DNA of 64,000 nucleotides from Ascidia mentula (lineage: Eukaryota > Chordata > Ascidiacea > Phlebobranchia > Ascidiidae), in the NCBI GenBank assembly GCA_947561715.1, contig OX387197.1, forward strand, positions 5,515,001 through 5,579,000. Reading direction: 5' to 3'. Shown here piece by piece: positions 13,440-55,900 of this stretch. The notes under the pieces were generated by a model that saw only the letters and a list, made by a program, of their open reading frames with translations, was not told the origin of the DNA and made no database searches. The translations under genes and the position numbers were made by a program. Every line of letters starts with the position of its first letter. Position 1 is the stretch's first letter.

Positions 13440-27843
<14,404 letters not shown>

Positions 27844-29260: not shown

Positions 29261-30345
29261 ATGACATCCACTGAAGGTGTAAGTAAAAAAACTCATTTTA
29301 CCGAAATCAAACATCAATTATTAGTGCGATTTGATATTACTTTACCCTGTCTGTACTTGGTTGACGAAGGGTGTAAGTATGAAACCTAATGAAACCCAGT
29401 ATCATGTATATGGCCGATTTGCTTTAAATGTGCTTCTTTCTCTATTTAGTTGACGGAATTCAGCACGAAAGATATTTATTTCGATAATGACCAACATGAA
29501 GCGGGGTCTGGTGGCTTTGGCCAGGTCTGGTTTGGCTTCCACAGGGTCTTAAACAAGTACGTTGCAGTAAAAATCTTTTCTGTCACCGGAGGACCACAAG
29601 AAAAAGCATTCGTAGAAAATACGTAAGCTGATGCGTTTCACCCTGTTGTTTAAAGAATTGATATTCAGTGGTTGATTTTTACAGAATAAGGGAGGAAATG
29701 AGCCATCTGAAAAAATTAAATCACAATAACATAGTGCGTGTTCTTGGCTGGGTGAAATTAGATTTCGCCATGGGAATTGTGATGGAATATTGCAAAAATG
29801 GAAACCTCCGGGTACTCCTGCTCGACAAGAGAATTCCACTCAGCGTATTCCTGCGCGTTTGGTTGCTGTCTAACATTGCAAAGGCTTTGGCGTGTTGTCA
29901 CAGATTTTTGGATAAACGCTTAGTTCATGGTGACGTAAAACCAGAAAACTTCCTTTTAACGGGGTTGTTGATTTGTAAATTGTGCGATTTCGGTACAGCT
30001 GAATTGGCCACCTTAACCTCATCGATTAATGTGCCTACTCCAGAAAAGAGTAAGAAGAAGAAAATTCAATACACCCCATACTACACAGCACCGGAAAAGC
30101 TAAAAGATCTTGCCATGAAGCCAACAAAAGAGTTGGACATTTACTCATTTGCTATTCTATTGCATATGGTTCTCACCCGTGAAAATCCCTACACATGTGG
30201 ATCAGATGACCATGCAGGATTACTAAACGAAATTAGGGAAGGGCTTCGACCCAATTGTGATACAATCGCACATTGGAAGGCATCCCTTGATGACCGCGAC
30301 CAGGCTATAGTGGAAAAGCTCGCTATTAACTGCGCATTTATTTGA
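29261..30345 (+). CDS. Truncated kinase copy of the kinase-PARP/macro cluster
   Basis: Three exons: 29261-29278 (MTSTEG), 29450-29622, 29685-30345, giving 283 residues. The kinase domain has the glycine loop GSGGFGQVW, lysine in VAVK, a catalytic loop HGDVKPEN (Gly replaces the usual Arg), DFGTAEL and TAPEKL, as in RIPK/TKL-type kinases. It stops after VEKL with an unrelated tail (AINCAFI). The C-terminal lobe end seen in its sisters (MKQCWDQNPSSRPTM) and all PARP-related parts are missing. From about 29366 to 30325 it is nearly identical, introns included, to the inverted copy at 39989-40945. The first exon, however, resembles that of the next gene downstream. It may make a short kinase or be a decaying copy. 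Confidence 0.6.
29366..30325 (+). repeat. Left arm of a ~1 kb inverted duplication (kinase module)
   Basis: Pairs in inverted orientation with 39989-40945. Similarity includes intron 1 (a CAGTATCATGTATATG stretch) and both kinase exons, so the duplication or conversion is recent. Similarity ends abruptly at the codons following VEKL. Confidence 0.75.
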
Positions 30346-30671: not shown

Positions 30672-33446
30672 ATGACATCCACAGAAGAAGTAAGTATCAA
30701 TATAAACATAGGGTCAGGTATTGGTGTAATTTGCTTATACTGTGATTCCTTTTAGTTAAGCGTGTTGAATGCGAAAGATATTTATTTCGATAATGACCAT
30801 CATGAAGCGGGGTCTGGTGGGTTTGGCCAGGTCTGGTTTGGCTACCACAGGGTCTTAAACAAGTACGTTGCAGTTAAAATCTTTCATGTCACCGGAGGAC
30901 CACAAGAAAAGGCATTCGTAGAAAATACGTAAGCTGATGCGTTTCACCCTGTTGTTTAAAGCATTGATATTCAGTGGTTGATTTTCGCAGAATAAGGGAG
31001 GAAATGGGCCATCTGAATAAATTAAATCACAATAACATAGTGGGTGTTCTTGGCTGGGTGAAATTAGATTTCGCCATGGGAATTGTGATGGAATATTGCA
31101 AAAATGGAAACCTCCGGGTACTCCTGCTCGACAAGAGAATTCCCCTCAGTGTAGTCCTGCGAGTTTGGTTGCTGTCCAACATTGCAAAGGCTTTGGCGTG
31201 TTGTCACAATTTTCTGGACAAACGCTTGGTTCATGGTGACGTAAAACCGGAAAACATCCTTTTAACGGGGTTGTTGATTTGCAAATTATGCGACTTCGGT
31301 GCAGCTGAATTGGCCACTTTAACCAGCTCGACTACTGTAACTACTTTAAGAAGAAGCAAGAAGAAACATCCGCAATACACCCAATACTACACAGCACCGG
31401 AAAAACTAAATGATCTTGGCATGAAACCAACAAAGGAGTTGGACACTTATGCATTCGGTATTTTAATGCACATGGTTCTCACCCGTGAAATTCCCTACAG
31501 ATCAGGAAACCTAGCAGATTTACTGGACGAAATTAAAAATGGACTTCGACCCAATTGTGAAGCAATCAGAAATTGGAAAGCAACTCTCGATGATGGTGAA
31601 AAGGAAATAGTGGAGAAGCTTGAAGAATTGATGAAGCAGTGTTGGGATCAAAACCCGTCATCTCGCCCTACGATGACTGAAGTAAGCGATAGGTTGAAAG
31701 AACTTCTAGACGAGCAACTTTCAGCGGTGGTAGAACAACATGCCTCGGATGCTCTGAAGAAAATGGAAGAAATCTATCCTCCAGCTAACTTAAATCCATG
31801 CATTCCCCTCAATGACATGTGGGCACGCAAAAATCCACGTAAAGATATGAGCATTCTAAATGGGTTTTTTATTTACATTAACCTTGTCCGTTTTAATATT
31901 TTTGTGGTGGTTATTTTCTTTTTTGCCATACAACTATTACAGCATAGCATAATTTCGCAGTTCTCTATCCACTTGGAGATGGAGATGATCGTTTCTCTGC
32001 GCTAGGTGATCCTACAAATTCTTTACGAACCTTGGATGAAAAAAATGGCAGACATTTACAAGGTTGCGTTCAAATGACGCAAACTCGCGTTTTTTTTTCT
32101 AGGCTAATTGATGTTTTCGGGAGCAATTTAGATGAAATAGCTTTAAAATTATTGCATTGAGAAAGGATGAAACGTTATCTTTAATTTTGTGAGCTGCAGA
32201 CAGATGGCCACCGTTTCGACCTATGAGGTCTCATTAATGCAGCTTCATGTGGAATTAGTGCAGCTAGGTCATCTTAATTAATCATGCACATTTAATGTCA
32301 TCTTTCACAATAATGACAGTATTTTTCTGATCAGATATAACATTTTTTATATGCACAGACTGAAAAGCTTGCTGCTCTACGTGAAAGGAGCCAATGTCCA
32401 ACAACATATATTGAGTTTTTATAAAGTACTTCCCTTGTTTTAGTTTCGATTCCAAATACGTGGGAGGATATGGAAGGTGATATTTGGAAACGAGTGAAGG
32501 TGCAACGGAACACAAGCGAATATTTAACCAACACTCAACGATTTACGGCAACCCTGAACTTGACTGTTGTTACAGTAAGATTACGGAGCTTTTTCCACAT
32601 TATTAAAAGATTTTTATTTTGTGTTCTAAAAGGTGCGCGATCATTCGAACCCAGAATGAACAGAGGTCAATTTTTCGAAAAGCAATTTTTAATTATGTTT
32701 CATCAAACCAAAGCAGGAAATATTTATTTTTAGAACCTATGCCTATAGATCTTATGCGCATATTTGTGCAATGTGGACATGGTATTATTTAAACTTGACA
32801 AGCTAATTTTTCAGTTGGAGCGAATACAGAATCCAACCCTTTGGAGTCAATTTCAAGCTCAAAAAAAGAAAATTGAAACTAAACTGAAAAACCTCCCGGT
32901 AACAAATGAACTCTTCCATGGAACAGACGCAGAAACGAGCGACAACATTATCAAAGACGGGTTCGACAAAATTTGTGCTGGCCGAGGTTTGTTTACTTAA
33001 TATCGAGGTTGTGTGACACTTCAAACTTACACGCATGCCGTTTTTTTGCTACTAAACTCTCTAAAACGTTTTTCGGGGATAAAAACGTTTAAAACAACCA
33101 CGACGTCTGCTCTCGACATAATTGTAGTTCGTTATCCTCAAGTAAAATGTTTAATTACTATGCTTGCCTAGTAACCGCGGAAGGCAGAGGAGTTTACTTC
33201 GCAACGACTGCCAAATACTCGCACGATTATACCTCCCAAGACCAACAAGGCAACCGATGCATGTTTCTTGCCGAAGTTGTGACAGGAAGTTACTGCCTTG
33301 GTAATAAGCAAACCAACGTTCCACCGAAGCAAAACGACGGATCGCCTTTCGACAGTGTTGTGGATAATCTTGAAACTCCATCCATTTTTGTTGTTTTTCG
33401 CAATTCCAGCTTCTACCCATTATACCTACTGACGTACAAATCATAA
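30672..33446 (+). CDS. Kinase-PARP fusion: RIPK-like kinase joined to a PARP14-type ADP-ribosyltransferase
   Basis: Seven exons: 30672-30689, 30756-30928, 30991-31838, 31961-32062, 32444-32574, 32815-32986, 33172-33446, giving 572 residues with all phases agreeing. Residues ~10-300 are a complete kinase: GSGGFGQVW, VAVK, HGDVKPEN (non-RD), DFGAAEL, TAPEKL, and CWDQNPSSRPTM near its end. A linker containing DRFSALGDPT follows, also present in the minus-strand sister. From about 390 on comes the PARP14/10/15-type region: a lead segment (TWEDMEGDIW), LERIQNPTLW, then the catalytic fold with LFHGT, GRGVYFATTAKYS and TPSIFVVF. The implied triad is His-Tyr-Ile, which in this family means mono- rather than poly-ADP-ribosylation. 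Probably cytosolic signalling or innate immunity (inference). AATAAA lies at 33534. Confidence 0.8.
32190..32248 (-). ncRNA. Decayed hammerhead ribozyme copy in the kinase-PARP gene
   Basis: Minus strand: GCTGCA, then TTAATGAG (two core changes from CTGATGAG), stem II ACCTCATAGGT, an intact CGAAAC, a GGTGGCCATCTGTC stem III and cut site, then TGCAGCTC, which pairs with the first arm. Stem I, II and III are all still formed; only the first core segment is damaged. It sits antisense in the intron between exons 4 and 5. Confidence 0.7.
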
Positions 33447-35124: not shown

Positions 35125-38100
35125 TCAAGGCTTTGGCAGGTTACGCAGCAAATAGCTCAGCTTATTTGCTTTTGATTGAGTCATATCATCTTTAAGTTTT
35201 TGTACGTCTTGAAACGCCTAAAAATCGAAAAGTGTCTTTTACTGCCATTTCTAACAGAAATTTGAGATTTCCAGATTACAAACTTATTTTAGTAGCTGAC
35301 AGGTACCTGATCTACGTCTTCAGATTCCCATGAACAAAACGTAATTTGAACAGTATCAGTATCTGCATCTATCAAAGAATATGCACATGCTGGTCGGGAT
35401 ATATGCAGTAATTATCACAGTCATTTGCATTTTAGTAATTGACAGAATTGCGCTGTTTTAATCTACGCCTAAAAGAAATGACATCAAGATTGCCGTAATG
35501 AGCGGGATTTCGAAAATAGCATACTTTGTAGTCAATGCTTATGGCTATGAAATTTACGTATTATTTTGCTTTACTATTTCCGCGACGGAACACAGAGAAA
35601 AATTTACCTTGGCCCAAAAAATGTCATCACCGTAATACCGGCAAAAAATAGGTTTTAGATGTGTGGGTTTAGGTGACTGACATAAATGTGTCAGGGATTA
35701 CGTAGTATTAGAAATTGTAAAAAGTTAGGTTTGATATATTTTACCAGATAAACTGGTATCCTTCAATAGATTTCTCTGAAAATCTGGAACCATGTGTGAT
35801 TCAAACACATAAACTTCAACCAATTTTAGATTGACTGGATTCATTTTGTCAAATTCGTCCAAAGCAGCAGCGACGCTTTTCGCTACAAACTCAATTGGTG
35901 TTTTCATAATACCTACAAATATAAAAAGAGCAAAATCACAACGCAACTTTACTCCTTTGTTCGATCACGAATGCGAATAGGAAACATTTTCAAAAGTTTC
36001 AGTGTAAATTTCAAGACCGTCAGAAAGTGACATGATCGGTGTCAAATTGTAGTTTTATACGAATACTGTTGTTTATCAACTTTCGTACCTGTTCCAACTG
36101 CTGGAATAGCCAAGCTTTTAACGCCCAACAGTCTATCCGCCTCCACAAGACATTCAACGATAATATTTTTAAGTAGAATGATGTTAGTTGGAATTTCCAG
36201 GTGCAAAATATATTTGCACAATTTCCCTCCACTCGTAATCCGCAGATTGTCGGATTGAAAGATTGGGTTGTGGTGACATTCGTCAACAATGGCCTGACCC
36301 GCTTTTGCTATAAGAGCTTTCCCTAAAAATCCTGTGATGCAATCAAATACCAATTTACAAATTCAATTCCTTGAACAATTTATGGCATATTTATGGAAAT
36401 ACATGTTTTTATAAATGTGTTCAAACAAAACCTATGAAAATCGTTGTGATCATAAGGCTAGAATGGGGAGTGATTACCGGAATCATTTGAATACAATTTG
36501 CAGCATATATCGTGACCTATTGAATATATCGATAAAGCAAACCAAACATACCATTGAATGAAAACTGAAAAACTGAGTTCACAATGGCCTCACAGTCAGT
36601 AAATGTGATATCTCCATGCATGAGCGTAATGTTAAATGATTTTAAGGCTGTTTTACCAAGAACTGTTGGAGAAATATCTTCACTGGTAAAATTGAAAGCG
36701 TGAGAGAGAAGTTCCTGAAAAAATAACATAAAATAATAAAAAAGAAATATATTGGTTTGTGGTTTAAGCCAAATAACCAATCTGGAAGAGGGTAACTTTT
36801 GTTGTGGAAGGTATATGTCTGCAACACATCTATTTTTCTCAGCAATGAGATCAATTTCGTTCCGACCTTCTGGGCTGTGTAAGTATTGCACAATTTTTGA
36901 CCCCTTTAATGATTTCTCTGTGGTTCGAAGGCCAGCAATGATTTCCTCCAGCCAAGAGCACGCTTCAAGTCACGATTAAGTTTATTGTTCATGTTACGTG
37001 TTATATATCGTATACCTTACCCCTCAGTACTCGTGCAGAATCCCCTTTGAGGAAAATTATCGGCACTGTAGGTTTGAATTCTAATTGACATCCATCCAAT
37101 TTCTTTTCGCTGTCTTTATGTAAATGCAAGTATTTCTCAAGATATTCGATGACAAAACTTTTCGCATGAAACGATGCGGTGATGACAAGATTTTCCGCAA
37201 TGTGCAACCCAATTTCGTTGAGCGCTAATTTAAAATCTTTCGATACTCCAACGACATCAATGGTCGATGCAATGATCTTTAAATATTAGAAGTGTAATAA
37301 ACAGGCGTATAATTATTGTAACAACTTCTCATACATTTTCGTAAACTTGCGCAGCACCCGCACAAACTTGGCTTTTCAACCTCTTCCATTGCTCTGTTTT
37401 GACAACTTCTTGAATGTTTGCAACTTCCAACGTTTCTTGCTGAACGATGTCGATCAAAACCTTTTGTGCTTTTTCAATCTCAGCTGGGTCGCAGAACACT
37501 ATACACACGTCGTCCGATTTCAGTTGAAGGGAAGCTGTAAGCAGTAAGCATTTATTGAAGTTTTTCGCCAGTTTAAAATAAAAGCTGTATTTTTGGGATA
37601 TTATTTTTTAAATTAGTTCAGCAGATTTTGCAACTATTAACCGGAGAAAGTCATAACTTACAAAGTTTTCTTTGGAAAAATTAGGCAGGAAAAAGTTGTT
37701 TTCCGAAAGACTTATTCAAAAACAATAAACAAAATATTTCTTTCACAACCCCTCACACTTGCATACCAAAATAATTAAGAATACAATACTTGCGAGCCCA
37801 CCATTTATTCCCCGTTTGGAGAAGAACGATTGTATTTCTTTTCTGGTGCGAAATCCGCCTTCCGGATGCAGAGTCGCGAGTAGAAACCTTTTACGTAAAC
37901 CCATCTCGGACACTGGCCGTGTTTGAAAAGTCTAAAAAAGTAACATTTTTTGCAATTTGCGTTTGTAGCATACTTACAAAAAGTTTATAGATAAAGAGAA
38001 ATACTTTATAAATATACAATTTACTTTATAAAAATACAATTATCACTAAAATACAACAATGAATTACTCGATACCTGTACAGCACATTCAATGTTGGTCC

Positions 38101-40957
38101 TTGCCTCCTGTACATGTTGTCGTAATCCTGTCAACGTTATTGTCCCATTTTTCTCCTCGTTTTCACCAATTTTAATTTCAACATTTTTTTCCATGTCGGC
38201 AATGACTTTTGGAATCAAGTAACATTCGCGTATTGCCCTGCAAAAGTACTTCTACCAATGAGAGCCTTTAAATATCGACTGTACTACAGAACAACATGCG
38301 TGAAAATTCATGCACCCAATGTAATTTTTCAACTTATTTCATGTTTCAAGCGGATGATGTGTAACATACCAAATCATTTCCAAAGAATACTCCAAACTTA
38401 ATTCTTTCACGTTAAAGTTTTCGTCAATAAACTGCAAAACATCGTTGACGTCACTAGTAACACCAGTCACGTTTATAGCGCCTTCGTTGTTTCTAATTAA
38501 TCTAAAAACAAAAAGTTTGGCTGCACCAACTTTTTCGTGCTAATTTAGAAGGCATGGATATTACCTGAGATATATGTTAATTGGTTTGTCATTTCCCGCA
38601 TCAATCTTCACATACTCATGCTCTTCGTGCCATTTAAAAGCTGTCCGAATCCTCGTCAGATTTTCGGATCCGTATGTGACGGACTCGGTGCTGAATCGAC
38701 TGAAAAACTCGTTCATAATAGAAGTGCATATATTTTCATATTCTTCCTGGTTGTACTTGAGGTTTTCTTCTAAATTCTACCAAACATGGAAGCAAATCAT
38801 GTTCACACAGACTATAATACAAGTGAGCACAACACAAAACGATACCCAGGGTAATCGTTTTTTCGTTCAATTCACGAACCTCAGTAACAGGCAGAAAACA
38901 AAGTGATATTTCGTTCGATCTTTCCACCACCTCTAGTACTGATACGCCCTGGAGGTCATTGTGCAATTCGTCGAAACCGGATTTTGACTTGCGTATGTAA
39001 CGAATGACGTCAGGGCCAACTTTAGGGGATGCTCGAAATTCCTTTACGAGTGTTTCTGAACAAAAAAAACTACCCCATTAAAAAAAAACTCCCATTACGA
39101 ATCTGTTATTATTCAGTTCCAAGTCGAAGCAAATATTTTCAACGCAACAAAATTAAAACTTGACCTTTTCGTGCCGTTTGTTCAAATGTGACGTCTGAGT
39201 AACTTGTAGGATCACCTAAGGCAAAGAAACGATCAGCTGGCTGACCATGAGTCTTCGGTTCTACAAAGAGAAGAAATTTAGAAATGGTTTCTCGCTAATT
39301 GTTTTGTCAGCGGTGGGACATTAGTAACTGGATAAGACGCAGAAGGGACTCATATACCAATATACTGCGCTATAACCTACAGGGTCCAAATTTTCCTATT
39401 TCTTGGTTGATTTTACATTTACGAGGCTCTCTTTTTGTTTGATTTTTTCAGCTTCTAGTGCAAGCATAAGTCCAATTTAGATTCTACAATCCTTTTCATC
39501 ACTTCCTAATCCATAATTTTTTGCAACATCGAATCACATGATTTCATTTTTTTCGCTTCTGCACAATTGTTACTGTAGGACTGATAAGTGGACTGACATG
39601 TGAGTAGATATTTCGCTATAAATATTTCCCAAACACCAATTAGTACGTGGTTAAATAACCTGTAGAGTTCGGTACCTCCTGATATGTTTCGATGTTCTGT
39701 GGCCCACTTAGCTCTGCAATATCAAATTAAAGTAACAGATTTATCAACCAAACAAAACATTTGTACCCGGGGGAAAATTTTTGCGCGCCCACATGACATT
39801 GAGTGGAATGCATGGCTTTAAGTTTGCTGGTGGATAAATCTCATCCATTTTCTTCAGTACATCCGAGGCATGTTGCTCTACCACCGCTGAAAGTTGCTCG
39901 TCTAGAAGTTCTTCCAACCTATCGCACACTTCGGTCATCGTAGGGCGAGATGACGGGTTTTGATCCCAACACTGCTTCATTATTTCTTCGAGCTTTTCCA
40001 CTATAGCCTGGTCGCGGTCATCAAGAGATGCCTTCCAATGTGCGATTGCATCACAATTGGGTCGAAGCCCTTCCCTAATTTCGTTTAGTAATGCTGCATG
40101 GTCATCTGATCCACATGTGTAGGGATTTTCACGGGTGAGAACCATATGCAATAGAATAGCAAATGAGTAAATGTCCAACTCTTTTGTTGGCTTCATGGCA
40201 AGATCTTTTAGCTTTTCCGGTGCTGTGTAGTATGGGGTGTATTGAATTTTCTTCTTCTTACTCTTTTCTGGAGTAGTCACATTAATCGATGAGGTTAAGG
40301 TGGCCAATTCAGCTGTACCGAAGTCGCACAATTTACAAATCAACAACCCTGTTAAAAGGAAGTTTTCTGGTTTTACGTCACCATGAACTAAGCGTTTATC
40401 CAAAAATCTGTGACAACACGCCAAAGCCTTTGCAATGTTGGACAGCAACCAAACTCGCAGGACTACGCTGAGTGGAATTCTCTTGTCGAGCAGGAGTACC
40501 CGGAGGTTTCCATTTTTGCAATATTCCATCACAATTCCCATGGCGAAATCTAATTTCACCCAGCCAAGAACACGCACTATGTTATTGTGATTTAATTTTT
40601 TCAGATGACTCATTTCCTCCTTTATTCTGCAAAAATCAACCACTGAATATTAATGCTTTAAACATTAGCGTGAAACGCATCATCTTACGTATTTTCTACA
40701 AATGCCTTTTCTTGTGGTCCTCCGGTGACATGAAAGATTTTTACTGCAACGTACTTTTTCAAGACCCTGTGGTAGCCATACCAGACCTGGCCAAAGCCAC
40801 CAGACCCCGCTTCATGTTGGTCATTATCGAAATAAATATCTTTCGCGTTGAATTCGGCCAACTAAATAGAGAAAGAAGCACATTTAAAGCAAAACGGTCA
40901 TATACATGATACTGGCTTTCATTAGGTTTTCATACTTACACCCTCAATATTTGACAT
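35125..40957 (-). CDS. Kinase-RRM/KH-macrodomain fusion (PARP14-like N-terminal half on a RIPK-like kinase)
   Basis: Eighteen exons, listed 5' to 3': 40940-40957, 40689-40861, 39767-40626, 39660-39713, 39165-39260, 38846-39055, 38565-38769, 38370-38501, 38075-38237, 37790-37931, 37335-37534, 37021-37276, 36778-36962, 36552-36714, 36089-36331, 35745-35912, 35307-35368, 35125-35217. They sum to 1,140 residues with every phase matching. Residues ~10-305 are the same non-RD kinase (GSGGFGQVW, VAVK, HGDVKPEN, DFGTAEL, TAPEKL). The linker has DRFFALGDPT. A run of ~600 residues follows with short repeating units like the RRM/KH stretch of PARP14/PARP9 (for example ITLTGLRQHVQEA and INVTGVTSDVNDVLQF). 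A macrodomain comes at ~905-1045 (GDITFTDCEAIVN, IPAVGTG). It lacks the usual NAAN and Gly-rich loop, so ADP-ribose hydrolysis is doubtful. No PARP domain is present. Confidence 0.75.
39989..40945 (-). repeat. Right arm of the ~1 kb inverted duplication (kinase module)
   Basis: Inverted partner of 29366-30325, with the same kinase exons and near-identical intron 1. In this arm the kinase continues normally past VEKL into EEIMKQCWDQNP. Confidence 0.75.
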
Positions 40958-42646: not shown

Positions 42647-45459
42647 CTAATCTTTCATCGATTTTTTGTTTTTGAATTCTGCAACACCTGGGGGGGAACA
42701 AATTACGATTAACAAATAAAAAGTCACATAGAAGCAAAATAAAAATAACTTACTAAAAGCTCCCATGCTAAATAATAACAGAACGAGTTGGAAGTAGATC
42801 TTGTATCTTACGCACACTGCAGTGCTCCAACCTGATTGAAATGCATAACCGCCCATCATAAAAAGCGACCAAACCACCATAGCATTTTCTCGATCGTCGG
42901 GAAAGAAGGCAGCATGGGCGGCTGTTAAATGTCGTGTATATGCTTTGTTTAATAATTCAGCCATTCATAAAATTTGTTTATCGGTATCGTTTCTATAAAA
43001 GGCATAATTTCGTTCATGGCATGGTATTTTAGGTTATTGGCACGATGATAATATCTGGAGAACGTACACTTTAAGTTAAAATACTCACACTGTACAGCCG
43101 GCAAATTGCAAGTCTAATTATTGTTAGTGGCAGACGTACTCGCATCCATATTAAGAATGTCGCTTCAATAAACCTAATTTAATCAAAACGGACTTAATTC
43201 CAAGGCGACCGATGTACGTATTCTAATGTAAAATACCTGAACTAATGGGAGATCGAATTCCATTTGCAAAACCCATCAACCCGAACAAGATATAGACCAA
43301 CCACTTAGAAGATTCTGTCGGCATCCAAAACAAGACGGTTAGACATGTTGTCATTTCCATCAGCGTACAAATTAAAAGTGGCAACTGAAATCCATATTTT
43401 CCTGATAATTTTCCAATTAGAAATGCGACGAAGGCATTAATGGCACTGAACGTGGCCATGCACAGAGGCACCTGGAATTAAACAACCTTAAAAACTGCAT
43501 TCCTTGTGGCATTTGGTAAACCTAAAATACCCTAATTCCAAGTACTGAAACTCAATTTGAGATACGAAAGAATAATTAACACAATGAGAATCCGGTATGT
43601 CTTACCTGGTCAACACCAAGAATGCATGAGGTTAGGGATCTCGGCATTTCGACGAAGATGAACCCATGCATTACACCAAGGCTAAATGGCGTTGGGATTA
43701 TGAGAAGTTGTTTGGTTTTCAACATCTGGCGAAATGTACTTTGCACAGAATATAGAGCCAGGTGAAATCCCTTTAAAGCAAGTAAATAGAACGATACATG
43801 TGGAGTAAGGAATTAGGGTGAAAAAAATAAGTAAAACAAATAAACACAGACTAGAAGCGGTGATAATTCAACAACAGCGCTGTGTGTTCCTACCTTTACT
43901 TTAATCTCATTTTCAATGGCAACATCATCTCTTTGACTTTCAATAGGTTCGGAAGATGCTGGAAGTCCGTGTGGAATGTAAGGCGGGCTTCGGAAGGTGG
44001 CATCACCTGTGCCTACTGTATTATGGTTAATCTCCCATGGTTTTGTAATCTCTTCTTCCTCTATCTCATTGTAAAAACCTTTTAGAGAAACGCTGTTACT
44101 ACGTTTTCTAATTTTTACCCCCGCTCCTAATTCAGGTGTTTCAACGAAGAACCCCTGAATTGTTACAGCGATTAGAGTCAGACCCATGAAAACACCAAAC
44201 ACGATGTAAAGTGTGGTTTGAGGTGGGACGTACTGGGCCAGGTTTTGTTGCGTTACGTTCGGGTCCTGACAATCGTTGGCGCCACAAATAGAAAAGTCGC
44301 GTTGTTTTGATGTTTTGTTCGGGTTGGTTGAGTTTGTAGGGAAAACACGGGTGGAGCCTCCAACATAGAGAATGCAATAGGTCATCAGGTGACACATAAC
44401 CTGTAACAGAAAGTTTCTTGCAACAAAGTCTTCTGTAATTTATGGTTGATTTTTTTTTGCTGATTATACCTCAGCACTTAAACTTACCGATGATAAGTAC
44501 AAAACACCAGAAAAATAGCCAAGAAATTGGGTGTTGTAGAATTTACATTCCTTCTTTCCAAACCTGGCGTATCTTCGACCGAAATGTACGCAATAAATCA
44601 TGAAGGCAGGCCAAGTTATGGCTTCACCTATTCCTACAAGCGCTCCACTGATGGTCAACATGTAGATATCTGAATTATAACATTTAAACATTTAATACTT
44701 TGAAGGTTAGATTTTGGCAAGATATTTATTGTTTATAATATCGTGTATAATAACTGTTTGAAGTATGATAAAAAATTAGACCTACTTGAGTAGTAGTTGG
44801 AGCAGATGTAGAGAAAGTGAATGAGGTAAGCAGCTATTAGCGCCCGTTTAACACCAAGAAACTGGAAAACAACCGGAGTGCCTGTGATGAGGAATATAGT
44901 TGTGGTTGAGTAAAGAGCCGTGGTTGATGTCACCCCTGAAAAAATCACAAAGCAGATGACATAAATTATTTTTTACCCGTCTTTTTTCGGATTTCACTAC
45001 AAAAAACAGGCATAGTGTCAATAGTCTGGTATTTAACGATTAGTAAGCTTTCTTAACAGCGTATACTCGGTGTTCTCATATGAAGTAATAGCTCTTACGC
45101 AACTACACGTGCGGCGGTTCGAAATAAATTGACCACAAAATAACAAACATTTTCCAACATATTTTACCAACGCCGTTGACGATGTTCACGCTTGACTGCA
45201 GAGTGAGCATCGAGTAATACGAACCCATGGTTAGAACAACAGCAGCCATAAATAACCCGAATTTGAGCTTCACATCCCTTTTCTCCTTTCGATACATCGC
45301 TTGCACTGTATGACTTACCGTATCGAAAATAGGATACGAACCAAAATTTTGTATTTCTGTTTTTATCAAGCGTAGATGTTCCTTAATGATAGGAAAATTG
45401 TTAGGATCATAACGACTATTCCTCTTTTCTTCTGAATGTAATAGCTGACAAAATACCAT
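42647..45459 (-). CDS. UNC93-like multi-pass membrane protein, copy 1
   Basis: Eight exons, 5' to 3': 45168-45459, 44786-44935, 44488-44669, 43894-44400, 43606-43770, 43237-43471, 42754-42921, 42647-42687. Up to 579 residues, or 525 if translation starts at the ATG at 45297, where the paralogues begin to agree. The fold is MFS-like with about 11-12 membrane segments. UNC93 marks are SMLTLQSSVNIVNG in segment 1, AYLIHFLY, GIGEAITWPAFMIYCVHFG, NTQFLGYFSGV, the lumenal FSICGANDCQDPN loop, PPQTTLYIVFGVF, and STFRQMLKTKQLLIIPTPF followed by CILGVDQ. A large charged loop sits in exon 4. The family includes UNC93A, and UNC93B1, which escorts nucleic-acid-sensing Toll-like receptors. Which role applies cannot be told here. 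Confidence 0.85.
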
Positions 45460-47214
45460 AATTTCCCATTAAATGTTTACAAACTTTCATGAGTTTTCTT
45501 AAATTTTACAAATTCGTTCTTTTCTACGCGTAAAAAGCAATAAAATTTTTCAACAACAAACGGATAGAACAAGTTGCAGTCCTACCGCAACCAAGTAAAA
45601 TCAAATCTACGTTGCATTTTGGCCTCCCAGTGAGCTTGATGTGCAAACTGTTGTCGAGCGTGAAGTTATGGGTTGCGCATGCCTTAGCATGTTTCCTTAG
45701 CCTAACACGGTCACGCAAAAGCAAGTACGCTGCACCTTACAAGCTTGCATTGCAGTTTGTTGAAAAAGTTGCACAAGACCAATCGTTTTCTATATACAGA
45801 AATATCTTATCTCACGTATATATTATGTACACGCATACAACGACTGATCATTTAATTCGGATTGGAACATGCACCTCTATATATATTTTTGCTACCTTTA
45901 GTTTTCGCGCTGTTCCGGTGCAACACGCAATGGTGTGGCTATATACTGACTGCTCTATTTGCTGTACAGTGCTTGTCTTGAGTAAGATTCTAATAAAACT
46001 GCTCATTTCGGACACGGATGATTTTTTTGCCAAACTTACAGGGTTCTACCTTGTCAGCTTGGTCAATTATTCTGTCCCCCTGTCAAGTTTAAGATTTATA
46101 GACTTTGACTATTCGGAAAAAGGCAAACAGACCGAAAACTGAGACACCTTCTTAAGCAAATAAAGAGGTGTGGTGCATGTCTTCGTCTGGCTATTTAGCT
46201 AACAAGATCGTCACCAAAGCTGAGATCCGTTCGTTCACTCATCCATTGGGACAAGTATAGTTTTGAAAAATTTCAACGGTAAAATTATTTTGCGGAACTT
46301 TCTACTCGTTTCAAACATTAACACTTTCGTTGAATCGTTACTACAGGACAACAATACTTGTGACCGTAAAATACGGCTATAACAATTAAAATACCACCAC
46401 TGAGAAAGAATACGCAGTAGAAAAAGAACATACAATTGTATGGTTCATTAGGTTTGCAGGCATTGCAGCCTAGCTGGATCAGCCACTTTTTCCTGTAAAG
46501 TCGGAGCAAGATTAGAAAAATCAAGCTCCCGGTGAGGTTTAAACTCACGACCCTGGGCTTACCAGGCCCAACGTTCCACTAACGGAGCTACAGGAGGCTC
46601 TGTGGTTTCCCGGGGTATATTGTGGCCAAGGTACACTGGTGCGCAAGCGCACAACTTGCCAAGTAACCTTCACATATGGCATGAAATATTACTGCGTTAC
46701 AATTTTATGGTTCAGTAAGACATTTTGATCTTTTATTCCTTTTTTCCGTCGTGTATTTCAACTATAATATCGTAACATTACATGAGTTTGTTAAAAAGTC
46801 ATCAGGAAGTAATTTCCATTCTGCAGAGGTTAGAAGTAGGTTTGCATGAAGTAGGATGTCACAAAAAATCTAAATACTGTTCGTCACATTATAAACAGCT
46901 TCTAGTTTTCCAAATTTTATATTTCGTGTCACAAATTGGATTCCATTCCTAGTCAAGAATAAAGATATTTTACTTTATCACAAACTACGCAGTAGGAAAT
47001 TCGAAGTTTTTTTTTTTCAAAGTGGCTCCATGCCTGGACCCGTATAGTTATATTGTAATTATCATGAAACTATGGATTTTAGTTGCCACTTTTCGTGTCC
47101 TTTTTAACCATGTTGTTATGGAATGTTTTCCAAAAATACTTGTTTTCCAAAAAAATAAGAACCAGTCTTAAATATCTTTACTTTGCAGACATTAGAGGGC
47201 GATAATAGAACGCT
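45460..47214. other. Spacer between UNC93-like copies 1 and 2
   Basis: The left part is the 5' flank of copy 1. Parts of it (near 45620-45780) recur in the flank of copy 2 (near 50120-50220). The long + frame at 45612-46142 lies in this duplicated flank and has no family resemblance. A tRNA-like SINE head lies at 46524-46598. A possible minus-strand AATAAA for copy 2 lies at 46734-46739. Confidence 0.5.
46524..46598 (-). repeat. tRNA-like SINE head
   Basis: The minus strand folds as a near-complete tRNA: acceptor CCTCCTG with CGGGAGC, a D-arm TAGCTCCGTTAGTGGAAC, an anticodon arm TGGGC-CTGGTAA-GCCCA (loop triplet GGT), and a T-arm GTGAG-TTTAAAC-CTCAC. The end base pair and the T-loop C are lost, and GGT is not the normal animal Thr anticodon. 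I therefore call a tRNA-derived repeat rather than a tRNA gene. The sequence after it (CTTGATTTTTC..TGCTCCGA) matches the copy at 22.85 kb, which supports a SINE body. Confidence 0.65.
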
Positions 47215-49830
47215 TCAGGCAATCGTCATCGTTTTACTGTTTTTGCATTCTGCGACACCTGGTAAAACAAACTAAGATTTAAACACAAAAACAGCTGTAC
47301 GGAAGCAAAAACTTACTGAAAGCTGCCATGCTAAATATCAACAGAACGAGTTGAAAGTAGATCTTGTATCTTACGCAAACTACCGTGCTCCAACCAGATT
47401 GAAATGCATAACCGAACATCAGAAACAGCGACCAAAGCACCATAGATGTCTTCTGATTGTCAGGAAAGAAGGCAGCGTGGGCGGCTGTTAAATATAGTAG
47501 AATATTTTTAATTACGTCAGAGATTCGCAAAATCTGTGTATATATTTTGGTTCAACAACAATTACATTACAAGCTTAATAAAGGAAGTTAAATATCATAT
47601 GTATTTATCGATATGTTTTCAATTTATTTAAACCAATGAAAAGAGCACGTACTGATGCAAAATACCTGCACTAATGGGGGAACGAATTCCGTTTGCAATA
47701 CCCATCAACCCGAATAGGCAGTAAACAATCCACTTGGAGGTTTCAGTTGCACTCCAGAACAAAATAGTTAAAAATGTTGCCATTTCAAGCAGTGTACAAA
47801 CCAAAAGCGGCAACCGAAATCCATATTTTCCGGATAATTTCCCAACATAAAATGCGATAAAGGCATTAATGGCACTGAACGTGGCCATACATAGAGGCAC
47901 CTTGAAGTAAGAAAAATAACTGTATCGTACACAAAGCACAACAAAATAAACTATTTACATACCTGGTCAACACCAAGAATGCAAGAGGTTAGGGATCTTG
48001 GCATTTCGACGAAGATGAACCCATGCATTACACCAAGGCTAAATGAAGTGGGGATTATGAGAACTTGTTTGATTTTCAACATCTGGCGAAATGTACTTTG
48101 CAGAGAATATACTGCCAGATGAAACCCCTTTGAAGCAAGTACATATTTCTTGATATACGAAGTATAGAATTTGAGTAAAAAGTGCATGCAAAATTAAACA
48201 ACATTAAATTTTCACAATCACACACTGGGTACAATAACATCCAAATAGCACTTTATGTATAAGTTACCTTCACTTTACAATCCTCGTGAACAGCAACGTC
48301 GTCTCTTTGACTTTCAATAGGTTGGGAAGATGCTGGAAGTTCATGTTGAATGCAAGGCGGGCTTCATATCGTGGTATCAACTATGCTTACAGTCTTACGA
48401 TAAACTTTCTCATCCTGTTCTATCTTGTTGCAAACACCTTTTAGAGAAACGCTGTTACTACGTTTTCTAATTTTTACCCCCGCTCCTAATTCAGGTGTTT
48501 CAACGAAGAACCCCTGAATTGTTACAGCGATTAGAATCAGACCCATGAAAACACCAAACATGATGTAAAGTGTGGTTTGAGGTGGGACGTACTGGGCCAG
48601 ATTTTGTTGCGTTACGTTCGGGTCCTGACAATCGTTGGCGCCACAAATAGAAAAGTCGCGTTGTTTTGATGTTTCGTTCGGGTTGGTTGAGTTTGTGAGG
48701 AAAACACGATTAGGGCCTCCAACATAGAGAATGCAATAGGTCATCAGGTGGCACATAACCTGTAACAGAAAGTTTCTTGCAACAAAGTCTTTTGTGACTT
48801 AAGGATGATTCCAAAAAAATTTGCTGATTACCTTACTCCATTGTAAACTTACCGATGATAAGTACAAAACACATGAAAAATATCCAAGGAATTGGGTGTT
48901 GTAGAATTTACATTCCTTCTTTCCAAACCTGGCGTATCTTCGACCAAAATGTACGGAATAAATCATGAAGGCAGGCCAAGTGATGGCTTCACCTATTCCT
49001 ACAAGCGCTCCACTGATGGTCAACATGTAGATGTCTGAATCATAACATTTAAACTATAAATATATAACTATATATAAACTATATATAATGTACAATATTA
49101 TGTCTTATATTATATCTTTTTTTCAAACAAATATGTCATTCAAAACTATTTGTACGTCGTGTTTGTTTGAAATTTTGTTGTTTTGACCAAAAAAGCTGAA
49201 TACAATCATAACGTAACCGCGAATGAAATTTTACCCACTTCGGTAGTAATTTGAGCTCATGTAGAGAAAGTGAATGAGGTAAGCGGCTGTGAGCGCTCGT
49301 TTAACACCAATAAACAGGAAAACTACCGGAGTGCCTACGACGATGAATATAGTTGTGGTTGAATAAAGAGCCGTGGTTGATGTCACCCCTGAAAAAATAC
49401 TGATGAAATTGATACAAATTATCATTTTACTCATCGTGTATTTCAGTTATCGCACACAATCTTGTATTTGAAAGTTTGAATTTCTTCACCCATAATGAAT
49501 TGAAACGAATTCTTAACAACATATACTCGGTGTTCTCATCTAAAGTAATAACTGGAAGTTTTTACGCAACAACACGTGCGGTGGTTCGTAGTAAGTTGAC
49601 CACAAAATAACAAACAATTTCCAACATATTGTACCAACGCCGTTGACGATGTTCACGCTTGACTGCAGAGTGAGCATCGAGTAATACGACCCCATGGTTA
49701 GAACAACAGCAGCCATAAATAACCCGAATTTGAGCTTCACATCCCTTTTCTCCTTTCGATACATCGCTTGCAGTGTATCACTTACCGTATCGAAAATAGG
49801 GTACGAACCAATTTTTTTCTGTTTTATCAA
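47215..49830 (-). CDS. UNC93-like multi-pass membrane protein, copy 2
   Basis: Eight exons, 5' to 3': 49635-49830, 49239-49388, 48853-49034, 48391-48759 (or to 48268), 47963-48127, 47666-47900, 47317-47484, 47215-47258. Closest to copy 1: the segment-1 motif, FSICGANDCQDPN and PPQTTLYIMFGVF are all kept, and exon sizes are the same except in exon 4. Following copy 1's exon 4 donor, this copy meets an in-frame TGA at 48364-48366, where copy 1 has CGA. A gtaagc donor just upstream (exon end 48391) is in phase and would skip the stop, giving about 502 residues with a shorter cytoplasmic loop. The gene is either spliced that way or truncated in its loop. The upstream ATG at 49830 is in frame, and 49764 is the alternative shared with copy 1. 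Confidence 0.78.
49040..49100. repeat. TA-rich microsatellite-like tract
   Basis: Repeated TATATAAACTATA units in the intron between exons 2 and 3 of UNC93-like copy 2. Confidence 0.6.
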
Positions 49831-52800
49831 GCGTAGATGTTCCTACAAGGTAAGTATGTTGTTAGGATCACAACAACCATGTCAACACCCTATTGTATGC
49901 GGTAGATGCTAAAAATGCCACCATTTCCTATTCAAACGTCAGGCAAAGTAAATTTAATGACTTTTCTCAGACTTGCAGATAAGTTTAGAAGTGAAATTTT
50001 AGATTTTCTCCACGTGTTTAAAGAAACAAAGAAAATCTACGACTATCAAGAAAACTGGGCATGATGGCATCCCAGCCCAGCAGATGGATTAAAGTTACAC
50101 TCCTTTTGACCTTCTATACTAAACTTGATGTTCAAACTTTCGTCGATAGGCAGGCTGCAGTGTATGTACGTGCTTGTATTGCATTTTGATGAAAACATCT
50201 ATACGCCAATCAAAACACTGCATTTGAAACACTGCAACAAATTTTGATCTGAGAAATCTGAAAGCGAGTAAATGAAACGTGCTGACTAGTGGTAATTATT
50301 TTTGCAATCGTTTTCTTTTCGCATCAGTAGTTTTCTGTGCACAAGTTTTTCTTGAAACCTTGCATTATCGACCTCGAAGCTAAAAACGGAATACAGTTGC
50401 ACTTTTGATAATGAAATTATTACTTTTGCCATCTTGTTGTTTCTTAATGTGAGTTTGTACTGTAGTTTAATGCTCTTGACGTGTGTTTAGCGAAATCACC
50501 TAGTCTGAAGCATTGTAAATAAATGCGGTGGTACAAAATAAGCTGCATCTGAATATCAATGAAAGGAAGTTAGTTTACTCTCAGACAAATCCAGAAAGTA
50601 AGGGAAAATACGAACTCACAAAAACGTCACACATTGACACATTACAGTAACCAATATGTTGTCTCTTCTTTCAACGAGTTATGAACACTCTGGTTAGAAA
50701 CTCTAATTTAAATGATTGGATAGTGATAAGGTCGTGATAGTGATTAAACAGTTCCGGTGACACACACGAAATATGCAGCAACTTTTCTACTGAAAATGAT
50801 GTTTTTGATGTTTCTTTTTAAAAAACGAGGCACAGATTAGAGACCCTACTTAAAATTAAAAAATTAATCCAACTTATTTGAAAAATTGAAGGCGATTCTG
50901 TCAGACGTTTAAACTCCCACGCATGAAAAATCTAGGCGAGATTTTTAAACTTATACACCTCTGTGATGTCAGATCCAAATTATCTGGAACGTGTGGGCTG
51001 ATGACCCAGCGCTCTTTAATTTGTTAACAACGCGTTGGAAATCTTTCCAACTTTCCCTGCGTTACTTGTGGTTTAAAGTCCCGTTCATGTGAGTTTGTAT
51101 TATGCTAACTTATTTTTGGAGGTAGTCATATTTTACGAAGACATTTCAAATTGCAGAAAATAATCTGTCATAACTTATTCTGTATCTCAACGTAATTATT
51201 CACGATGCCTCAGATTAGGTAAATTCGATAAACACAAGTTAGAACGATTATTGTTACAAAGTTTACCATTACCAATGGTCAGCAGGCGCCTAAGCTAATT
51301 TACATTTTGATTGATGACATTTCGCAAACTAACACAATTTCACAATCAAAATTGTATCTAAACTTATTCTACTCTTCAGCTCTATCATGCAGGCTTTTTA
51401 TGGGGATTTACTGACAAGGAAAAAAATGACAAAGGTGTTTGTAAGTTTTACATGAATCCAGCATCAAAATACCAAGTCGATCGAAACCTTCAGCACGCGA
51501 TGCAATTGTAAGAAAAATGCTTCCTCAATAAAACTACTGATGCGAAAATATCAAATGAAAGCGTACAATCTGCGGGTGTGATTTAATGGGACCAGACAAC
51601 GATGCGGTCGCGTTTTTCTGGGAGCGAACAAAAATAAAGTGGCGTTTCAGAGAGCAGGAAATTACTTTATATTAAGTTCGACGTCAACGTCGCAAATAAG
51701 ATACCGCCGTCAAGTCGGACGAACCCGGGAATAATATCATCTCTCACGCAATCTTCCATAGTTCACTGTCCATGTGATGTTATTACGTACAACTCTACTA
51801 TAAAAATACTGGGCAAAAAATATAACAAAAGCTCATTCCAAATGTTCAAATAATTTTATTAAAAGACAAAATTTGCTGAGTTGTTTTTGTTTATTTTAAA
51901 AACTCAAGCCACGGACATCTTGAATATCGTGTATAAGCTGCAGACAGATGGCCACTGTTTCGACCTAAAAGGTCTCATCAGTGCAGTCTGCAGCTTATAC
52001 ACAAATTCATATTATTTGCTCCACATTGCTTATCTTGAATATCGTTCAGCAACTGATAAAGAGTCTAACAAGGAAAGTGCTCTACTAGCAATATATAATG
52101 AAAATATATGACTAACGTTAAAAGTAATTAACCACAGGAGAATAAGTTCAAAAATCACTGTCACACAGAAATCGAACGAAGATTGTTTCTTTCTTTGGTG
52201 TAAGTTTTTTGGCAAGCCCGCAACCGGAAACAATGATATACCGCACTTTCGACGCACATAAATTATTCAGGATGATTTTTACAATTTTATTCTTTTTTGT
52301 TTTAATTTGTCACACGACGCGCCAGGGCGTCGCGATGCACAGTATGAACTTCTATGCCAGAAGAACTTTAGAACAATGCAGCATCGTAAGCATTTCTGTC
52401 TGCGATTCTACACGCCAGGGTTTAAAAAATCTTCTGTAAACAGTTCTAATTTATTCCTTATTTCCCTAAAATAAACTAATAAAATACAGCGATGTGTAAA
52501 ACTGTATTGCAATTAAGCAAGTGCACAGTATGTCAAAACTTGTTTAAGTTACAGTTTGAAAATTAAGATAAATTAGTAATTAATATGTGTATAATGGTGC
52601 GCTTCACCTTTGCACACACCTCTACCAAACAACTTTTGTATGGGCTACAATATATCACTTTAAGTGGACTGTTTGAAAACAACCGGTTTCGCGACAAAGA
52701 AGTCAACAGAACGACTACATTTAAATACATGAGACAAGAGTTTTACCGTCTAGCTTAAAACCAGTCGGGCGCAAGGCGATATTTTCCAACCATAACGAAA

Positions 52801-52946
52801 AGGGAACAAACTGCTCTTAAGCGACATTCAACTCGCTATTGCCACGCAACCGTGTCAGAAAACACACCAAATGTCATTCGTAGCGTATCAGTCGGATTCA
52901 CATAGCAACACTGATGAAAAAAAAATGTTTGAGCACCGAGATCGCG
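49831..52946. other. Longest spacer of the UNC93 array, with one intact hammerhead insertion
   Basis: 5' flank of copy 2 and 3' flank of copy 3, separating the two UNC93 pairs. The hammerhead element at 51931-52031 is the only clear structure. Sequence near 52305-52395 (CGCCAGGGCGTCGCGATGCA) and 52853-52925 recurs behind copy 4, marking the 3' part of a segmental duplication. AATAAA on the minus strand at 52450-52455 may serve copy 3. I found no gene in 49.9-51.9 kb. Confidence 0.5.
51931..52031 (-). ncRNA. Hammerhead self-cleaving ribozyme in a short retroposed element
   Basis: The minus strand carries a complete hammerhead: a stem I arm GTATAAGC with an internal loop and TGCA, then the core CTGATGA, stem II GACCT-TTT-AGGTC, GAAA, stem III ACAG-TGGCCAT-CTGT, the cut triplet GTC, and the returning arm TGCAGCTTATAC. 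All core bases fit the consensus. The 101-base insert lies between perfect 14-base direct repeats ATCTTGAATATCGT (51917-51930 and 52032-52045). Its right part reads in the + direction like the 15.4 kb copy while the ribozyme is reversed, as in a 5' inversion during target-primed reverse transcription. Confidence 0.88.
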
Positions 52947-55900
52947 TTAACGTTTCTTTTCTGTGGACTCCTTGCGATGCAAGAATTCGGCAGCGACTAG
53001 GAAAAATGAAAAAGGTTCAATAACGTTGTTGAAATCCGCAGCAAAACACAAGTTACTGACCATAGGTTGCCATTCCAAATAACAATAAAGCGACTTGGAA
53101 GTAGATCTTGTATCGCACGCAAACCGCCGTACTCCAACCAAACTGCAAAGCATATCCAGTGAAGTGACAAAACGACCAAACCATCATAGCTTTCTCATGA
53201 TCCTCGGGAAAGAATCTAGCATGGACATCTAAAAACACAAAATTAGGATACTTTCCATATAGCAATATATAAGTATATGTTCTTTTACCTGTGGTCATGG
53301 TCACACGAATTCCAGAAGTAATTCCTGCCACGCCAAATAAACAGTACACAAGCCACTTTGTAGAGTTGGTCGGCACCCACAAAAGGCAAAATAATGCAGT
53401 TCCAATGTCTATCACCATAGCAACACCCAAGGGGACGTGATTTCCGGTACGAGAAGATATTTTGCCGACAAGAATCGATGAGCAAGCATTAGCTCCACTA
53501 AAAGCAAGGATGCACAAACCAACCTGCCAAAAAGCTTGTCATAAGTCAAACACACTTTTCTACTCTTTTTCAATGTTATTTATGATGTTGCTTGAAGTGA
53601 TTAGATTTTCGGATATAGTAAATTCAGGGCTTAACCTGGTCCACGCCGAGTATACACGAGCCAAATGCTCTTGGCATCTCTCCGTATATAAAGACTTGCA
53701 TGAAACCCGTGTAGAAGCTGAAGGGCATTATCAGAAGCTGTTTCGGTCGAACCATTTGTTGAAGGGTTTCTTTTAGTGACGATAAAGCCAGACGAATGTA
53801 ATTCTGACAGGGGATAAGAAGAAATCATTCATTTTTTTAATTCAAACTTATGTTCATTCATTTCTTGCCTTGAGCTATTATTTGGAAGAACAACATAAAT
53901 GTTAGCAGTCAATTACCCACTTTTCAGCAGATAAGTTAAAGTTTTAACAAACGAAGATATCATGACGGTACAGCAAAGTTAACAAGAGTGAAAAAGATTA
54001 ATCTTAAGTGGAAATCCATTCGCTCAAAAAAATTTTCCAAACTTACTTTTTTCCTTTTCGGTTCAACATTACGATCTTCGTTCATTTCTTTGTCTTGTGC
54101 GTAATGACCTGGGAGTTCAACAACCAAACCGTTCGGGTTGGTCTGGTCAAAATTCTCCACGGCTTTAACATTGTGTGATACAGTTTGATCTTCATCTGAC
54201 TCCACCGTATTTACGTAACACTTCGATGCATCTTCCCTTTTAACAACGATTGGTTTCGATTCTAGACTTGGATCGGGATTGTCTGTGAACAGAATGTGAA
54301 CTGCCGTAGCCGCGAGTATTATCACACCAAAGCTTCCAAACAAGATATACAGCGTCGTTTGCGGAGGAACATACTGCGCTACATTTTCTCGGGTCGCATT
54401 CGGGTCCTGGCAATCATTTACGCCGCAAACAGAGAAATCATGTAATTTGACAGAGTCCGTTGAATCCGTGTTGTTTGTTTGGGAATTTTTCGGTGATCTT
54501 CCGACGAAAAGGATGCAGTAGGTCAGGATGTTGCTAAGCATCTGAAACAGATTATTTCCTTATGAAGAACCAGTAATGTAACAGACTCAACCCATCGCCA
54601 TGGTTTTGTTTTTTGTTGAGTTCGCTTGTGTGGTTAATGTTGTGCTGTGTTACTTTAGTTCAGGGGTGCACAACACAGCACGCGCGCTAGATTGCTAGAT
54701 TCGGAAATGTGAGACCTGGGCCTAAACGGTGGGCACTGTCTGCAGGGTCGGTCCAAAAAAAGGAATGCGGGGCTTGTGTTTTACCAAAAATACCCTACAA
54801 AAAGATCTCAAAAGATTTGACCGTTTTTGTGGAACTCGTTTTGGCCAAATCGAACAAATGTGCTTATAGGACCGCCCCTGATGGTTGTCTAATGGAGCTT
54901 ACTTATCATTACAGCTCATTTCTTCTGTATTTTCGTCGTATTTTCTGTAACTAAGTTTTTTGTTGTTGAACAGCCACTTTACCATTGCCACATACAACAT
55001 GGAAAAGAGATTTCCAAGAAACTGGGAGTTGTGGTAGTCGCGGGGCTTGCCAGTAAGCTTGGCGTATCTGCGTCCATAATGCACACAATACACCATGAAG
55101 GCTGGCCAGCACGACACTTCAGCCATTCCAACAAAAACACCCAACGTTGCAAACAAGTAGGTATCTGCAAAAAATGTAGGCATTTATGTCTCAGGAAAAG
55201 ATTATACTTTATTGCGTTATCGGCCTAAATAGTTTACGACCTAAATAGTTCTAATCAGTCATAGAGTGGTGCAAGTGATGTATTGCAGGGGTGCCCAAAG
55301 TTATGATGCTTTAGGGTGCAATTTAAAAGTTGTTTATCTGCGCGTTTGCAAAATTTGACAGCCATAAACCGCCCACTTTTGTATGTATTTTTTGGTAATT
55401 AATAGAAACCGTAACTGATGCTCCTCCAGCGCTAAATTATTTCATTAAACCGAAATTCCACATATATCGTATAAAGCGTACATTTTCAACAATTTTTTTA
55501 GCAACTGTGGCTGCGATATATGGCGAAGTATCGTTACACGCAAGCGAGTTAGTCTCTAAAAAATCTACAATTATAGTGTGAGATGTGACAAACGTTTGTA
55601 ACTAATCAGCACATATAACGCAGGTAATAAGTAGCGTTGCTGGAATCAAACTGTAATACCTGTTTTGTTGCATTTATGTCACGAGTCGCATGCGGGCGCA
55701 CCCTGATGTAATGGAAATTGTTACAGCGGGTAATCTTACTTGGATAGCAATTTGCGCACGTGTAGAGCAGGAAAAAAATGTAAGCGCACGCAACAGTCCA
55801 TTTCAGACCGAGAAGCTGGATAACCACCGGTGTGAAGGTGATACCGAATATTGCTGCGGAGATGTAAATTGCAGTGCCAGACCCCACACCTGTAGATTAC

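Follow-up and report, generated by a model that had tools for sequence, protein, structure and literature searches.

Can two enzymes of innate immunity that modify proteins in different ways be encoded by a single animal gene? RIP kinases are involved in inflammation as well as cell death, and PARP14-type enzymes act in antiviral responses. A sequence-only reading of a 64-kb stretch of DNA from Ascidia mentula (the whole of the stretch analysed, hereafter the window) had proposed that a complete kinase is followed, in one frame, by a PARP14-type ADP-ribosyltransferase (ART). In the present analysis, we consider whether this gene, here called gene A, is one chimera or two neighbours, where its two parts come from, how often such a join occurs in the genome, and what its product might do. 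We judge that gene A is one in-frame kinase–ART chimera with a probability of about 0.75, which is the best reading of its frame, its intron phases and the constraint on its ART.

The exon model of gene A

Gene A (30672-33446, + strand) is composed of seven exons (Table 1), whose spliced frame runs for 572 codons up to a single terminal stop. Each of the six introns is of the GT-AG type, and no stop or frameshift interrupts the 572 codons. The claim that seven exons in matching phases encode 572 residues was borne out, every exon being present. Use of the exon 5 acceptor at 32444 yields 572 aa, and that at 32447 yields 571 aa. The donors of exon 4 (gttgcg) and exon 6 (gtttgt) are not of the textbook kind and count against the model; donors without A or G at position +3 also occur in the model of the neighbouring gene B (4/17). 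As for the fusion itself, the frame, the phase match from both sides of the junction and the ART constraint stand, and the presence of all seven exons on one mRNA is what the DNA predicts. A kinase-only isoform arising by retention of intron 3 is possible, since the frame of exon 3 runs open into this intron; likewise, a Met within exon 5 could serve as the start of an ART-only transcript.

Table 1. Positions in the window of the features of gene A, gene B and copy C.
Feature	Position	Strand	Remark
Gene A exon 1, MTSTEE	30672..30689	+	
Gene A exon 2, kinase glycine loop and VAVK lysine	30756..30928	+	
Gene A exon 3, remaining RIPK1-like kinase domain (HGDVKPEN, DFG, APE) and C-terminal tail	30991..31838	+	
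Gene A exon 4, kinase-family linker exon (DRFSALGDPTN), phase 1 at both ends	31961..32062	+	
Gene A intron 4, junction of kinase-family and PARP14-family exons	32063..32443	+	
Gene A exon 5, start of PARP14/15-type ART domain	32444..32574	+	
Gene A exon 6, triad His (LFHGTD) of the ART domain	32815..32986	+	
Gene A exon 7, triad Tyr (GVYFA) and Leu (YPLYLLTY) of the ART domain, then the stop codon	33172..33446	+	
Gene A candidate polyadenylation signal AATAAA	33534..33539	+	hexamer match only
Gene B exons 1-3 (40957-40940, 40861-40689, 40626-39767), kinase 85% identical to that of gene A	39767..40957	-	
Gene B linker exons 4-5 (39713-39660, 39260-39165); exon 5 (DRFFALGDPTS) corresponds by homology to exon 4 of gene A	39165..39713	-	
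Gene B exons 6-12, PARP14-kind KH-type repeats	37021..39055	-	Pfam KH_PARP14_8, E 3.3e-6
Gene B exons 13-16, end of KH region and macrodomain	35745..36962	-	Pfam Macro, E 7.2e-8
Gene B exons 17-18, tail and stop codon	35125..35368	-	
Copy C, truncated kinase copy	29368..30345	+	29368-30322 matches gene B inverted

Identity of the two halves

Pfam places Pkinase at residues 22-296 (E 1.4e-42) and PARP at residues 404-529 (E 5.9e-21) of the gene A product, values that put both domains beyond chance; in a scan at E 0.01, only Pkinase, PK_Tyr_Ser-Thr and PARP are listed. GSGGFG, VAVK, HGDVKPEN, DFG and APE are all found in the translation, in agreement with the earlier description of a complete kinase with glycine loop, VAVK, DFG and APE. 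The nearest solved structure is RIPK1 (phmmer, E 4.3e-33, a measure of sequence similarity and not a placement in a tree of human kinases), which accounts for the 13 best matches and is followed by RIPK3. On alignment to RIPK1, the catalytic Lys, the HxD Asp and the DFG Asp are predicted to be those of VAVK, HGD and DFG, whereas RIPK1 itself carries HKD and DLG. Gene A further differs from RIPK1 and RIPK3 in that its C-terminal part gives no match to a Death domain or RHIM (Pfam, E 0.01) and holds an ART instead.

The nearest solved structure to this ART is PARP15 (E 2.5e-35), and next PARP14, both macro-PARPs of the mono-ADP-ribosyltransferase clade. Aligned to PARP15, the triad reads His (LFHGTD), Tyr (GVYFA) and Leu (YPLYLLTY over YPEYLITF), and this Leu is the residue that PARP15 itself has at the aligned position. 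The assignment to the PARP14 type made in the sequence-only reading is upheld by the PARP match and by these nearest structures, but the Ile that it had named as third member of the triad is rejected, the PARP15 alignment showing Leu. In contrast to PARP14, gene A gives no match to Macro, KH or WWE (Pfam, E 0.01) and has a kinase in front.

The junction at intron 4

Kinase and PARP14 parts meet in intron 4. On the kinase side, exon 4 has homologues in gene B and at the kinase loci L046, L050, L052, L053, L055 and L060, with E values from 0.002 (gene B locus) up to 3.3 (L053); given such values, the weaker homologues rest on a common ALGD.T motif and on position. In five of these six loci, inspected by eye, the acceptor of the linker exon is in phase 1 in all five and the donor in four; L052 contains in-frame stops. 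The homologous linker of gene B is likewise in phase 1 on both sides. Exon 4 is, to judge from these comparisons, a linker belonging to the kinase family, a point that the earlier note does not make. Where a TPR-like exon comes after the linker elsewhere in the family, its acceptor is in phase 1 in both loci inspected (L061 and L065); this exon is matched weakly in Pfam (TPR_8, E 3.8e-4, below the curated cut-off).

On the other side of the intron, the homologue of exon 5 is preceded, as in gene A, by an AG that leaves two bases before the first codon in all nine PARP14-like loci, picked where this exon was recognisable; at L022, L025 and L029, further AGs at most 40 bases away would give another phase. 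By homology, exons 5-7 are exons of the PARP14-like family. Because both sides are in phase 1, the linker and the first ART exon join without a change of frame. Between genes A and B, the linker bears no sign of constraint (dN 0.64, dS 0.72). Searches of the 64-kb window for a leftover WWE or TPR-like exon near gene A gave nothing better than E 2, and the sole notable match of the WWE query was the tail of gene B itself (E 2.6).

Origin and constraint of the transferase

In a comparison with nine full or partial PARP14-like genes, the ART of gene A is closest to that of a full-length PARP14-like gene at C1:7.461 Mb (71.7% identity over exons 5-7), to which it is joined by a branch with a support of 86.1/71. 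The two differ by a dS of 0.69 and a dN of 0.16 (dN/dS 0.24); against the other array genes, dS is saturated in 8/8 comparisons. The C1:7.461 Mb gene has coding exons for KH-type, macro, WWE and ART domains (WWE at Pfam E 2.3e-4; number of macrodomains judged by eye), and no kinase in the 16 kb examined, as shown by tblastn. PARP14-like genes with KH, macro, WWE and ART parts form clusters at C1:3.70-3.92 Mb and C1:7.24-7.50 Mb, some of them on opposite strands.

Gene A has kept 61 of the 66 columns that are invariant in its ART relatives. Among 78 codons with a single difference from the sister gene at C1:7.461 Mb, 49 could be polarised and 29 were dropped. The polarised single-base changes comprise 13 nonsynonymous and 12 synonymous on the gene A branch (p 0.003) and 12 of each on the sister branch (p 0.002), and on both branches the nonsynonymous share lies below the neutral expectation. 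The ART branch of gene A is twice as long as that of the sister (0.25 vs 0.12). By its dN/dS of 0.24 against the sister, the ART of gene A is under constraint.

Gene B and the history of the locus

A second gene of mixed composition, absent from the earlier note, lies convergent with gene A, the two 3' ends being 1.7 kb apart. Gene B (40957-35125, - strand) was modelled by hand, boundaries being adjusted by a base or a few so as to fall on GT-AG sites that keep the frame; the model has 18 exons, 17 GT-AG introns and a single terminal stop, and encodes 1131 aa comprising a kinase, two linker exons, PARP14-type KH repeats and a macrodomain. The kinases of A and B differ by a dN of 0.09 and a dS of 0.30, the latter being uneven along exons 2-3 (0.18 to 0.45). 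As divergence is uneven here and larger in the linker, gene conversion between the two kinase copies would fit. A third copy, C, which the earlier note also leaves out, is a truncated kinase; it is 96.4% identical to gene B over 956 bp in inverted orientation and ends in a stop about 330 bases upstream of gene A, with no ART in between.

Genes A and B might descend from one event, in which a kinase captured a whole PARP14-like protein and an inverted duplication then allowed A to keep the ART and B the KH and macro parts. Gene B is indeed collinear with the C1:7.461 Mb gene and stops where the latter proceeds to WWE and ART, and kinase and linker are common to A and B. We consider such a shared origin possible but doubtful: the ART of gene A is at a dS of 0.69 from the C1:7.461 Mb gene whereas the KH-macro part of gene B is near saturation (dS about 2), the macrodomain of gene B sits on a long branch with weak support, and the window yielded no remnant of a WWE. 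On the trees and dS, two separate captures are favoured over A and B being the two halves of one captured gene.

Alternative readings of gene A

The seven exons might instead be divided between two neighbouring genes: a kinase gene that stops at exon 3 or 4, or beyond it, and a short downstream ART gene driven by a promoter of its own. This division could draw on the frame of exon 3, which runs on into intron 3 without a stop as far as 32005, and on the first Met of exon 5, a start at which would keep most of the ART. It is nonetheless unlikely. The gap between exons 4 and 5 measures only 381 bases, and neither AATAAA nor ATTAAA occurs in 31839-32443, between exons 3 and 5 (elsewhere in gene A, ATTAAA is found in exon 3 at 31532 and in intron 5 at 32602). 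Upstream of exon 5 the frame is open only to 32425, with no ATG before the exon-internal Met. Moreover, the exon 5 homologue is an internal exon and not a first one in the nine relatives (in those that were read, WWE-like coding sequence was recognised by eye in front of it), and exon 4 is internal in the kinase family and ends on the matching phase.

Gene A could also be a chance rearrangement that is dying or was never functional, its open frame not yet having decayed. The faster ART branch of gene A relative to its sister, the unconstrained linker and the adjoining truncated kinase copy would all suit such a history, which we hold to be very unlikely. Against it speak the dN/dS of 0.24 maintained by the ART over a dS of 0.69, changes on the gene A branch that are as constrained as those of the sister, the intact 572 codons, and the low dN relative to dS between the kinases of A and B. 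The ART constraint is no proof on this point, because part of the gene A branch may predate the fusion. An assembly error joining two loci is extremely unlikely: inverted near-identical copies do occur in the region, as copy C and gene B illustrate, but the assembly was, according to the accessible text of its publication, built from HiFi reads at 74-fold with Hi-C (PMC11109543), and the repeated stretches do not include the junction intron.

Frequency of the fusion in the genome

The kinase query gave 127 matches, of which 117 were kept as kinase exons and ten short exon-2 matches were dropped; with 117 scored among 475 candidates, the family size is a lower bound. A partner was assigned if it was found on the kinase's own strand, no more than 12 kb away and ahead of the next kinase, and the matches compared were 150/150 for TPR-like exons, 56/114 for the ART (last exon, hand-chosen) and 36/69 for macro (hand-chosen). 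A TPR-like exon came next in 52 cases, an ART in one (gene A) and a macrodomain in one (gene B); no partner was found for 45 and the next kinase came first for 18, which leaves 63/117 kinase exons without an assigned partner. Within this sample of 117 exons the kinase–ART fusion is single. Gene A resembles the kinase–linker–TPR-like family of Ascidia mentula in its kinase (40-63% identity outside the window) and in the phase-1 linker exon, and differs from it in what follows, an ART; in gene B, KH-macro takes this place.

This RIPK1-like kinase family is very large, with at least 117 kinase exons, and there are at least 150 TPR-like exons, mostly clustered on C2 and C69; the kinases are found on C2, C69, C70, C52 and C1, and the TPR-like exons on C2 and other contigs. 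One kinase gene with a TPR-like exon (L037 and L065, C1:3721248-3728289) lies inside a PARP14-like cluster and faces an ART gene at C1:3719307-3719579 in convergent orientation, an arrangement that resembles that of genes A and B; its kinase match contains one in-frame TGA.

Proposed origin and function of the chimera

We propose that gene A arose from a member of the RIPK1-like kinase family in which a linker exon with phase 1 on either side is usually followed by a TPR-like exon. In gene A the place of the latter would be taken by the three terminal exons of a PARP14-like gene, the phase-1 entry keeping the frame, and the predicted product would carry a RIPK1-like kinase in front of a PARP14/15-type ART whose triad positions hold His, Tyr and Leu. 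The kinase half would be activated and assemble as in its kin, and the attached ART would then mono-ADP-ribosylate the kinase complex or its clients as a second output. Gene A would most likely encode a two-output immune signalling enzyme, with both activities predicted from its domains; its ART would be expected to transfer single rather than multiple ADP-ribose units, and its role would presumably be in immunity. Alternatively, the kinase half may serve as a decoy or docking part for the ART.

A more tentative extension, which we think might hold but would not expect to, takes A as an ART writer and B as a macrodomain-KH reader, forming a pair on sister kinases in one immune complex. The two proteins would assemble via their kinase halves, one marking and the other reading ADP-ribose, and the ART and KH-macro parts would sit in an exon socket used elsewhere in the family for TPR-like cassettes.

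Provided that the transcript is real, a single animal protein would unite two post-translational modification enzymes of innate immunity, with a macrodomain counterpart beside it, and gene A would offer a natural test of whether phosphorylation and ADP-ribosylation hit the same complexes. The linker exon, in phase 1 at both ends, would provide a concrete route by which an expanded kinase family can swap its C-terminal cassette. In primates, PARP9, PARP14 and PARP15 are under positive selection, as stated in the accessible part of one study (PMC4038475).

Relation to known systems

PARP14-type parts attached to immune signalling modules are already known, and gene A is a variant with a kinase as the module. 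Proteins combining DED-TRADD-N with PARP14-like parts occur in Crassostrea virginica, and TRADD-N proteins with macro and PARP domains in cnidarians, as described in the available text of one report (PMC8195603). In these the PARP14-type part is likewise carried on a module of immune or cell-death signalling, which according to the same text is a death-fold or TRADD-N adaptor and not, as in gene A, a kinase. Amphioxus has RIP kinase homologues with SH3, ZU5 and Zalpha domains, and hence offers, as far as the accessible text goes, a parallel from another invertebrate chordate, in which RIP-type kinases are numerous and combined with new domains; the word PARP is absent from the main text of that paper (PMC9573974).

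No kinase–PARP or kinase–macro fusion was found in the literature searched, largely without subscription papers, and within that scope the earlier statement that a kinase–PARP fusion is not commonly known agrees with ours. In the accessible text of two PARP-family surveys (PMC2964712, PMC4245714), 'kinase' appears twice each and never as a fused domain, and a review of bifunctional kinases mentions neither PARP nor ADP-ribos (PMC9138534). Novel domain pairs of lancelets may be gene-prediction errors, as the available portion of one study points out (PMC4967905), and this caution applies to gene A too.

Other coding regions of the window

On the - strand, 43816-59385 holds several similar membrane-protein-like coding stretches in repeated arrangement, of which 43816-44439 has no Pfam match and 53056-53538 a weak match to MFS_1 (E 1.5e-4, below cut-off). 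Upstream of the gene A locus, coding exons for Helicase_C (22267-22833) and Bromodomain (26083-26499) lie on the + strand and probably belong to one SNF2/BRG1-like gene. Further upstream are a CID-CREPT gene that appears intronless (8738-9835, + strand) and an open frame with four CUB domains (5492-7033, - strand).
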